NCBI GenBank assembly: GCA_016781505.1
Contig: JADDQF010000141.1
Span: 1-58,330, forward strand
Direction: 5' to 3'
DNA: 58,330 nucleotides
Source: a bacterium
Lineage (GTDB): Bacteria > Chloroflexota > Chloroflexia > Chloroflexales > Kallotenuaceae
Made by a program: the position numbers and the translations under genes. Shown in pieces: positions 14,557-17,333 of this stretch; position 1 is the first letter of the stretch; each line of letters begins with the position of its first letter. Below the pieces are notes generated by a model. It ran no database searches. It saw only the letters and a list, made by a program, of their open reading frames with translations, and was not told the DNA's origin.

Positions 14557-14904
14557 TTAGTGGGCTGGCAGCTTTGCAGCGACTTCGTCTGGAAGCGAAG
14601 GTGATGCGACGCTGTGGCAGAGCTGACATATGCGCGATGGTACGCCCGTTCCGCGCTCAACAGTGAGCTCGTCGCGCGAGCCGCAGTAGTGGCACACGCT
14701 AAGATTTTCAAGATCATCGGCTCGCCACAGCTGCGGCACTTGGGTAAAGGCGAGCCGACCCCGCACAGTACACATGACCTGGACTTTAACACACACTGCA
14801 GCCGGAAAGACTTCTTCAACCCGAGCATACATATTCGTGCGGTAGCACATCACTTCGTCGCCGATCAAAATGTCTTTCATGCGCGGATGCTGCTGAATCT
14901 TCAT
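14557..14904 (-). CDS. Small zinc-ribbon protein of unknown function
   Basis: 115 residues. A beta-rich N-terminal half (KDILIGDEVMCYRTNMYARVEEVFP) looks like a small SH3- or KOW-like barrel. The C-terminal half has two Cys-x2-Cys knuckles, CHYCGS and CQLCHS, 23 residues apart, a treble-clef or zinc-ribbon arrangement. I do not recognise a named family. It lies between queD and an acidic small protein with three-base gaps on both sides, so all three are one operon. A nucleic-acid-binding role is plausible but not shown. Confidence 0.65.
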   Translation of the reverse strand: MKIQQHPRMKDILIGDEVMCYRTNMYARVEEVFPAAVCVKVQVMCTVRGRLAFTQVPQLWRADDLENLSVCHYCGSRDELTVERGTGVPSRICQLCHSVASPSLPDEVAAKLPAH

Positions 14905-14907
14905 GAC

Positions 14908-15237
14908 TCAGCCCTGATCGTCCATGTCGGGATCATCATCGTCCTCTTCATCGTCAATGTCATCTGCAGGTTGGGCTTGCTCGAGATGTGCGATCATTTG
15001 GCGCAGGTCATTCGCCGACAGATGAAAGCCAGGCTGATCGGCGAACATAAGGTCGTCGAGTACCGCCGCAATGGCCTGCCGATAGCCAGTCTCGAAGATC
15101 ACCGTCCCAGCTTCCACAGCATAAAATTGGTCAAAGGCCCAACTCGCCATGTGCGACGTAGCGCTCGTCCCCTCGCCTGTTTGTTGACTGGCGAGCTGCA
15201 GCTGATCGATGATGTGTTGGCGCGTCAATACGTTCAT
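14908..15237 (-). CDS. Hypothetical protein with acidic tail
   Basis: 109 residues. Mostly helical (MNVLTRQHIIDQLQLASQQ ... YRQAIAAVLDDLMFADQ ... SANDLRQMIAHLEQAQ) and ending in a run of Asp/Glu (DDIDDEEDDDDPDMDD). No family recognised. It is first of the three-gene group with the zinc-ribbon protein and queD. The acidic tail suggests a protein- or metal-interaction role only in a general way. Confidence 0.6.
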   Translation of the reverse strand: MNVLTRQHIIDQLQLASQQTGEGTSATSHMASWAFDQFYAVEAGTVIFETGYRQAIAAVLDDLMFADQPGFHLSANDLRQMIAHLEQAQPADDIDDEEDDDDPDMDDQG

Positions 15238-15324: not shown

Positions 15325-15828
15325 TTACCCTAACCGATCTTCACACTGCGTATAAAAGCCACATCCCCGACAACGAGCCACCTGCTGATGTGAACGCGCG
15401 ACCTCATCCGCATTACGATCTTGCCGCAGCTCGTCCAGCAGTGCCAGCAGATCTGCTCGCACAGCTGCGGTGTACGGCATCCGAAACGTGTGTGTCGCAT
15501 AGCGAAGCAGCCCGTAAGGTGGGGCCTGCTGGGTTGCGTCTTCAACGAGCAAGCAATAGGCCGCCAGCTGCATCAGATCCCCTGCGTAGGGTGTCTTAGC
15601 CCTGCGACTCGGCTTGAGCTCGACCGGGATCAGGCCTGCTCGGGTTTCCAGCAGGTAGTCGGGCTTGCCGACCAGGCCATATCTGTATGACATCAACGGC
15701 TGATCCGCAGCGCGCCAACTACCGGTATCGGCGATCCTGATGCGGGCCCAGGGTAATCCGCTCGCGCGTCGCAAGCGGAGCGCCGCCACGAGCAACAACA
15801 CGGCGACGATCAGCAAGATCCATGACAT
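15325..15828 (-). CDS. Cas4-like PD-(D/E)XK nuclease, C-terminal half with membrane anchor
   Basis: 167 residues from ATG 15828. An N-terminal membrane helix (MSWILLIVAVLLLVAALRL) precedes the nuclease core: GKPDYLLE (Asp of motif II), LIPVELKPSRR (the E-x-K of motif III), DLMQLAAYCLLVED (QxxxY motif), and a C-terminal Cys set CRGCGFYTQC (C-x2-C-x5-C). In Cas4/RecB-type nucleases those three cysteines hold an Fe-S cluster with a fourth cysteine near the N-terminus. That fourth cysteine is in the preceding ORF (15898-16128), which is in the same reading frame but separated by two TAG codons. No cas genes or CRISPR array are nearby, so a CRISPR role is unlikely. Confidence 0.75.
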   Translation of the reverse strand: MSWILLIVAVLLLVAALRLRRASGLPWARIRIADTGSWRAADQPLMSYRYGLVGKPDYLLETRAGLIPVELKPSRRAKTPYAGDLMQLAAYCLLVEDATQQAPPYGLLRYATHTFRMPYTAAVRADLLALLDELRQDRNADEVARSHQQVARCRGCGFYTQCEDRLG

Positions 15829-15897
15829 GACGGTCAGCAACCTGCTTGGCTCACGAACGTCTATTTCCGTCGACTAGCCCCAAGTCCGGCGGCTGGC

Positions 15898-16128
15898 CTA
15901 GCTCAGTACCAACAGCGCACACGCCAACATGGCCAGCAGCAGGCCAGCCAGCAGCAACAGGTTCGCCGCCCAGACCCGCCGACCATGCCGAGCATGAAGG
16001 GCAATCCCTCGCTCACGGCGTGAACGACCGGCGGGCTCGGCTCCAAGCACATGCTTCAGCCACCAAGCCCGCCGGCAATACACATATTCGCCGAGCTCAC
16101 TCGCTCGAATTAAGCGCCCGCGCTGCAC
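15898..16128 (-). CDS. Cas4-like nuclease, N-terminal half with membrane anchor
   Basis: 76 residues from a GTG that directly abuts the rseP stop (TAG-GTG). RASELGEYVYCRRAWWLKHV matches the Cas4 N-terminus, with Cys18 as the first Fe-S ligand, then RERGIALHARHGRRV (the conserved G..H region) and a terminal membrane helix (ANLLLLAGLLLAMLACALLV). The ORF ends at TAG 15898-15900. A second in-frame TAG is at 15874-15876, and the catalytic half follows in the same frame. Either the enzyme is made as two membrane-bound pieces or one gene has been broken; both ends at the break are membrane helices, which favours a natural split in the outside loop. Confidence 0.65.
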   Translation of the reverse strand: MQRGRLIRASELGEYVYCRRAWWLKHVLGAEPAGRSRRERGIALHARHGRRVWAANLLLLAGLLLAMLACALLVLS

Positions 16129-17265
16129 CTAATCGCCGAACGGGCTGCGGCCCAGGAAGATGTTGCGCACATCCGAGAAAGTGACCAGCAGCATCAGCCC
16201 GAGCAGCGCAATCATGCCGATCGCATGCACCATGGCTTCTTTTTCGGGCGGCACACGCTTACCACGCCGGACCCACTCCACCAGCGCGAACACAATCCGG
16301 CTGCCGTCCAATGCGGGAATCGGCAGCAAATTAAACAGCGCAAGATTAACGCTGATCAGGGCCGTGAGCTCCAGATATTTCATCAGGCCGCCGGTACGCG
16401 CAACCTCGCCGGTCAGTCGTCCAATGCCGACCGGGCCGGCCACACCGCCCTGAATCTGCGTTTCCGACAAGCCGAGCAAAGAGCCGAGCAACACGCCAAG
16501 ACCGGCCAGCATTTGGAAAAAGATGGTGAAGGTATGGCTGATGCCGTACAGCACCGCCTCGAGCGGATTTTGCCGATCCGCGTACCGGACGGCTTCAACC
16601 TTGTCCGCCGGCACCTCGATGGTAATGCCGAGCGGCCCTTCGTTCGGGCCGAGCGCATCGCGGGTACGCGGCGTAACAGTGAAGTCTTTTGCCCGTTGGA
16701 GGCTGCCGCCGTTCTGGGTCTCTTGCCGCTCAATGCCAAGCGTCACGGGCTGGCCCAGCAGCGGCTCTAGCTGCTCTTGCAAGGTGCGCCGTGAGTCAAT
16801 CGCCTTGCCTTGCAGCGTAAGAATGACGTCGCCGGGCCGCAATCCTGCCTCCGCTGCCGGAGAATCGGGGTCGACCTTTTGGATCGTAAGCGGCCCAACT
16901 TCATCGGGCTGGCCCACCATGCCCACGATCGCAAAGATGGCGATGGCTGCGATCAGGTTCATGAAGGCGCCCGCGGCCATGACCGGAATTTTTTTCCAAG
17001 GCGGCGCGGCTGCGAGCGAGCCCTCGGTGTCAAAATTGCCTTCTTCGCCCGCCATCCGCACAAACCCGCCAAGTGGCAGCCAGTTTAAGGTTACTGGAAC
17101 ACCCTTCCAATGAAACAAGGTGGCCATGCGCGGCGGATAACCAAATCCAAATTCCTCAACCTTGATTCCCATCCGCAGCGCAGTCAAAAAATGACCGAGC
17201 TCGTGCACAAAGACCAGAAATCCAAGCGCGGGAATAACGGTGAGGAACCACAACCAATTAGGCAT
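16129..17265 (-). CDS. rseP: Site-2 intramembrane zinc metalloprotease RseP
   Basis: 378 residues from ATG 17265 (CCAGGAG seven bases upstream; a TTG two codons earlier is rejected). HELGH at 21-25 supplies the zinc ligands and catalytic Glu; the third ligand is in NLLPIPALDGSRIV near the C-terminus. One PDZ domain (about 120-200: LTIQKVDPDSPAAEAGLRPGDVI) lies between membrane helices. It cleaves membrane proteins such as anti-sigma factors and signal peptide remnants. It follows cdsA as in many bacteria, but dxr, often between them, is missing. It has its own promoter at 17334-17362. Confidence 0.93.
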   Translation of the reverse strand: MPNWLWFLTVIPALGFLVFVHELGHFLTALRMGIKVEEFGFGYPPRMATLFHWKGVPVTLNWLPLGGFVRMAGEEGNFDTEGSLAAAPPWKKIPVMAAGAFMNLIAAIAIFAIVGMVGQPDEVGPLTIQKVDPDSPAAEAGLRPGDVILTLQGKAIDSRRTLQEQLEPLLGQPVTLGIERQETQNGGSLQRAKDFTVTPRTRDALGPNEGPLGITIEVPADKVEAVRYADRQNPLEAVLYGISHTFTIFFQMLAGLGVLLGSLLGLSETQIQGGVAGPVGIGRLTGEVARTGGLMKYLELTALISVNLALFNLLPIPALDGSRIVFALVEWVRRGKRVPPEKEAMVHAIGMIALLGLMLLVTFSDVRNIFLGRSPFGD

Positions 17266-17333
17266 GTACAAACTCCTGGGGATGCATATGGGACAGTAAC
17301 GCCTTCGTTTCCGCCTGCATCACCGCTGCATGC

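Follow-up and report, generated by a model that had tools for sequence, protein, structure and literature searches.

The closest described relatives of the genes analysed here are the Cas4 and solo-Cas4 nucleases (PF01930, TIGR00372), among them SSO0001 and Pcal_0546. In SSO0001, the metal is bound by His62, Asp99 and Glu113, and the Fe-S cluster is held by Cys32 together with Cys188, Cys191 and Cys197 (PMC4176176). Two studied Cas4s retained DNA cleavage after loss of the cluster, which is therefore perhaps dispensable for activity (PMC4176176). A 2017 phylogenomic survey of Cas4 excluded short fragments and reported that many Chloroflexi have a solo-Cas4, which is monophyletic; the words 'transmembrane' and 'split' do not occur in its main text (PMC5704561). 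Our own literature search found no description of a split, membrane-bound or transmembrane Cas4, but it covered open-licence papers only and is weak evidence. A cluster that spans two chains is known from the dark-operative protochlorophyllide reductase, in which a [4Fe-4S] cluster is held by three cysteines of one polypeptide and an aspartate of another in BchN/BchB (PMC7948495).

Whereas known Cas4 proteins are one chain, the Cas4-like sequence studied here is carried by two genes. The window (the whole stretch of DNA that was analysed, 58,330 nucleotides from a Chloroflexota genome) contains both open reading frames on the minus strand within 15325-16128. The first gene, here the N-half (15898..16128, 76 aa), encodes the Cas4 N-terminal part followed by a C-terminal membrane helix, and begins with a GTG at 16128, immediately adjoining the stop codon of rseP (16129-16131). 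The second gene, here the C-half (15325..15828, 167 aa), encodes a membrane helix, the Cas4 catalytic core and three cysteines, and runs from an ATG (15826-15828) to a TAA (15325-15327); translation could also begin at a TTG (15838-15840), and the start codon in the window is uncertain. The N-half ends at a TAG (15898-15900), and a stop is found at the same junction in all close relatives. The C-half ATG lies 69 bases past this stop in the common frame, and a second in-frame TAG (15874-15876), which shows no functional sign, lies inside the 69-base intergenic gap. Immediately upstream of the pair is rseP (16129..17271, minus strand; NCBIfam TIGR00054, 5e-71), a neighbour conserved in Chloroflexia. 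Two small minus-strand ORFs downstream (14908-15237 and 14557-14904; 109 and 115 aa) have no Pfam match.

All motifs of the Cas4 family (the motif I His, motif II Asp, motif III Glu-x-Lys and QhXXY) are present in the same order as in Cas4, and the pattern of one N-terminal and three C-terminal cysteines is met as well, but both sets are divided between two polypeptides. The N-half contains Cys18 (YVYCRRAWW, 16075-16077), the presumed first Fe-S ligand and positional equivalent of Cys32 of SSO0001, and His45 of the RecB/Cas4 motif I (GxxxH, 15994-15996), a presumed metal ligand at the position of His62. The C-half contains motif II (GKPDY, 15655-15669) with the catalytic Asp57 at 15658-15660. 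Motif III (VELKP, with Glu70 and Lys72, 15613-15621) and the QxxxY motif (QLAAY, 15556-15570) were assigned from the C-half sequence and its conservation in relatives. Cys153, Cys156 and Cys162 (CRGCGFYTQC, a CxxCx5C arrangement, 15343-15372) are the presumed remaining three Fe-S ligands. All of these features are encoded on the minus strand. The original prediction had the Fe-S cysteines divided between the two proteins, and this stands; the division is wider than was noted, as it also runs through the active site, leaving the motif I histidine in the N-half. Both the metal and the Fe-S ligand sets of SSO0001 (PMC4176176) are divided by the split position.

The C-half scored above the Pfam cut-offs for PF12705 PDDEXK_1 (6.9e-7; 29.9 bits against a cut-off of 22) and PF01930 Cas_Cas4 (3.7e-6; 27.6 bits), and the N-half alone stayed under the Pfam gathering threshold (13.3 bits). 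A PADLOC Cas4 model matched the C-half at 7e-16, and a PADLOC Cas4 model matched 19 of 20 N-halves, the best at 3.5e-7; per-sequence homology of the N-half to Cas4 is weak (E about 1e-2 to 1e-7). On the 180 positions of NCBIfam TIGR00372, the N-half occupies 2-44 and the C-half 59-179 without overlap, and neither half meets the curated cut-off of 65 bits (16.6 and 56.8 bits, respectively). Profiles of the two halves were also compared with one built from eight intact Cas4-type proteins of Chloroflexota and Gemmatimonadota genomes: the N-half aligned with columns 5-48 (E 1.7e-5, probability 79%), the C-half with columns 61-191 (E 3e-29). These profile alignments place the split and both membrane helices between RecB motif I and motif II. 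A PDB sequence search with the N-half as query returned chance matches only, such as antibody chains. The PDDEXK_1 proteins, which include AddB/RecB-type and UvrD-Cas4 nuclease domains, resemble the pair in the C-half score and in the iron-staple-type arrangement of cysteines; the pair differs from them in having no helicase domain, in being membrane anchored and in being split over two genes. BchN/BchB is an unrelated reductase and not a nuclease, and its fourth ligand is Asp instead of Cys.

Each half carries one strongly hydrophobic helix, and the pair therefore does not fit the description of Cas4 as a single helix-free polypeptide. The helix at the C-terminus of the N-half (15901-15966, minus strand) was identified by sequence and hydropathy; that at the N-terminus of the C-half (15778-15825, minus strand) is followed by basic residues, as expected of the cytoplasmic side. 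The 19-residue hydropathy maximum was at least 2.01 in the N-halves (n=92) versus at most 1.43 in intact Cas4-type proteins, which are encoded by single ORFs in related genomes and have no helix of this kind. Net charge of the N-halves was +2.96 in the 15 residues preceding the helix, against +0.40 following it; in the C-halves the corresponding values were -0.06 and +2.65. Under the positive-inside rule, this charge bias puts the catalytic portions of both halves in the cytoplasm, a membrane topology that is inferred for each.

The distribution of the halves was assessed in 401 Chloroflexota genomes (400 plus the window's own genome), with thresholds of 1e-15 or better for the C-half profile and 1e-3 or better for the N-half profile. 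The C-half was found in 126 genomes and the N-half in 105; 103 had both, two had the N-half only (these genomes are 82% and 77% complete) and 23 had the C-half only. Seventeen of the 23 belong to one family (f24, Ktedonobacteria-like) in which the N-half has diverged, and each of seven such genomes that were examined has an adjacent or fused N-half, recognised by YxYCPLxWW. Among the C-only loci, L112 (G190), L113 (G160) and L116 (G077) encode Cas4-type proteins of the ordinary single-ORF kind, and L110 (G068) has a weak N-half adjacent; the six C-only genomes outside f24 include two (G266 and G270) that were not resolved. The labels Ktedonobacteria and Anaerolineae are inferred for these relatives from named tree neighbours and gene context. 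Within the order, the pair is near-core (53/60 genomes); in one genus (g5), six of ten genomes match neither half and four have both. Outside the phylum, the C-half profile matched in 8 of 200 Gemmatimonadota genomes, where six loci are adjacent pairs, four of them with 4-base overlaps. One genome (G267) carries two copies of the pair (L105, G267:C30; L106, G267:C27), one of which looks broken in both halves. The N-halves of f24 and its neighbours (L098-L104, L117-L127) are 125-144 aa long and have an acidic stretch inserted between cysteine motif and helix.

Conservation of the two halves is complementary. Cys18 is invariant in 93/93 N-halves, as are Cys153, Cys156 and Cys162 in 96/96 C-halves. 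Outside the Ktedonobacteria-like genomes, His45, Glu70, Lys72 and Gln87 are each kept in 81/81 and Asp57 in 80/81. We infer from this complementarity that the halves pair, share a cluster and cleave DNA, and we put at roughly 80% the probability that the products of the two genes are membrane proteins with one helix each, which jointly form one Cas4-like nuclease of the RecB-type, iron-staple class. No protein data are available, and the assembly, shared cluster, nuclease activity, topology and role are all inferred. As proposed, the N-half would lie in the cytoplasm with its helix at the C-terminus (N-in, C-out), and the C-half would begin with its helix (N-out) and place the nuclease core in the cytoplasm, so that the pair would restore the topology of a Cas4 with a two-helix hairpin inserted between motif I and motif II. 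The N-half would supply one cluster cysteine and the motif I histidine of the metal site; the other three cysteines and the Asp, Glu, Lys, Gln and Tyr would come from the C-half. Since neither half has a complete ligand set, activity should require pairing, at the inner membrane face. A stricter form of this proposal, an obligate two-component membrane nuclease in which the cluster and metal site exist only at the subunit interface and pairing in the membrane turns on DNA cutting, is one that we favour only slightly; it includes the possibility that the Ktedonobacteria-like assembly keeps the cluster and has lost catalysis.

The Ktedonobacteria-like genomes also bear on whether the pair is a nuclease at all. 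In these genomes, His45 is present in about half and Asp57 in 10/15, and some other catalytic residues vary. The loss of His and of some Asp and Glu residues, while the four cysteines are invariant everywhere, would be expected if the halves paired around an Fe-S cluster and served mainly as a membrane Fe-S sensor or DNA-binding anchor. However, the near-complete retention of RecB-type catalytic residues in all other genomes speaks against this possibility, and we regard it as unlikely, though not without support.

The neighbours of the pair differ between lineages. In Chloroflexia, the pair comes after rseP, in the window at the end of a pyrH-frr-uppS-cdsA-rseP run. The rseP and lipid-gene neighbours given in the original prediction thus hold for Chloroflexia but not elsewhere, where translin-like, NAD kinase and recN genes are found; the composite order in Anaerolineae-type genomes is translin-like gene, N-half, (YkuD), C-half, NAD kinase, small protein, recN. 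The translin-like gene (PF01997; the two that were tested scored weakly to moderately) immediately precedes the N-half in many genomes of the Anaerolineae type (L009, L074, L079, L083, L089, L092, L095, L128, L130 and L162), and in L162 it adjoins the N-half although the C-half is elsewhere. NAD kinase, the small protein and recN follow the C-half in several families (L136, L137, L141, L142 and L009). RecN is a double-strand-break repair protein, and the NAD kinase/recN context of the C-half suggests a repair-linked operon. This neighbourhood favours a membrane-linked role in DNA processing or repair with low confidence. With the same low confidence, we infer that the pair is likely a chromosomal DNA-processing or repair nuclease at the membrane and not a CRISPR component.

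The Cas4 models of PADLOC and NCBIfam do match the halves, and solo Cas4s have been reported from many Chloroflexi (PMC5704561), as would fit an antiviral or CRISPR-adaptation module in which a solo Cas4 is used in defence. The housekeeping neighbours of the pair and its near-core occurrence in the order argue against such a module. A CRISPR-associated Cas4 would also be expected beside cas1/cas2, or at the least in a genome that has an adaptation module, but no Cas1 was found in the host assembly, which leaves a role in CRISPR adaptation unsupported. No relative was found in the phage records searched, viral contigs gave a single weak partial match, and plasmid matches were confined to an ordinary Dna2/Cas4 protein on three Bacillus plasmids, over 42% of the query. 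We consider a defence module improbable. A mobile or phage origin was rejected after these searches of phage, plasmid and viral-contig sequences.

The two-gene architecture of the Cas4-like pair was established by comparison with relatives. In the first set of loci, all 40 of the 40 having both halves are split. Three relatives from the same genus are split with junctions that differ from that of the window and from each other (a TGA followed by a 67-base gap, a TGATG and a 4-base overlap). Relative to the N-half, the C-half of 81 adjacent pairs from relatives is in frame 0 in 16 cases, frame 1 in 15 and frame 2 in 50, and the distance between the halves ranges from -16 to +153 bases. The halves overlap in 37 of these pairs, by exactly 4 bases in 22 and exactly 1 base in eight; in the others the gap is 0-30 bases (24 pairs) or 40-153 bases (20 pairs). 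Judging from these stop/start overlaps, translation of an adjacent C-half is probably coupled to the N-half stop; Shine-Dalgarno sequences upstream of C-half starts were not above background (7% vs 9%). Nine genomes without an N-half beside the C-half have it elsewhere, in one copy each. For example, the halves are at 244.7 kb and 3,051.9 kb of one 3.3 Mb contig in G248 and at 188.7 kb and 1,076.0 kb of a single contig in G319. In such genomes, the proteins would be produced from separate loci. The two halves of L074 and L092 are separated by an entire gene, which encodes a YkuD L,D-transpeptidase. Both halves are under purifying selection: over 17 pairs, Nei-Gojobori dN/dS ranged from 0.02 to 0.36 in the N-half and from 0.06 to 0.21 in the C-half, and comparisons of the window with its relatives gave 0.14-0.23. 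The mirror-tree correlation between the halves (r 0.87) is expected of any vertically inherited pair and is not evidence.

These junctions also decide what the two TAG codons mean. The original prediction, of a Cas4-like nuclease made as two membrane-anchored halves that have one and three of its Fe-S cysteines, has strong support from conservation, the geometry of the junctions, the unlinked pairs and selection, with physical sharing of the cluster remaining an inference. All close relatives having the gene are split, so the single ORF in relatives that would have refuted it was not encountered. The in-frame arrangement with two TAGs is present in the window as described, but the scatter of frames in relatives makes the frame agreement and the second TAG look fortuitous, unlike the division into two ORFs itself. 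Readthrough of the two TAGs had also been raised. Production of one fused protein by stop-codon readthrough or programmed frameshift could draw on the common frame in the window and in 16/81 adjacent pairs of relatives, and on the continuous ORF of three Ktedonobacteria-like genomes; it is very unlikely given that junctions use all three frames over the whole range of gaps and that other genomes have the halves at unlinked loci or with a gene in between. Decay or mis-sequencing of a single-ORF nuclease, with the TAGs as mutations or errors, is suggested only by the common frame and two TAGs in the window genome and by the broken-looking second copy in one distant genome (L105), and can be set aside because the same-genus junctions differ and use other frames (L013, L015, L027), the split is found phylum-wide, both halves are under purifying selection and unlinked halves are separately conserved in other genomes.

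In a tree of 96 C-halves and eight intact Cas4-type proteins, a 97/97 branch separates the family from the intact proteins. Both halves are joined in one ORF with two helices in L119, L124 and L126, and these rows are scattered among split rows in the tree. Because the one-ORF rows need three separate changes and sit among split rows, the split is most simply ancestral and these three loci are re-fusions, which apparently arose independently.

Some members of the split family may have been counted as solo-Cas4 in the 2017 survey (PMC5704561). This is a widespread gene pair that has likely been overlooked by automated annotation, because both halves fall short of the curated cas4 model and no family matches the 76-aa half above its cut-off. 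If our reading is true, the pair would be a natural split enzyme, with two different membrane proteins completing both its cluster and its catalytic site, and a rare case of an Fe-S cluster common to two different polypeptides. The many natural junction, unlinking and re-fusion events provide material for studying how one enzyme becomes two genes, and the pair opens a way to study membrane-associated DNA processing in this phylum, the Chloroflexota.
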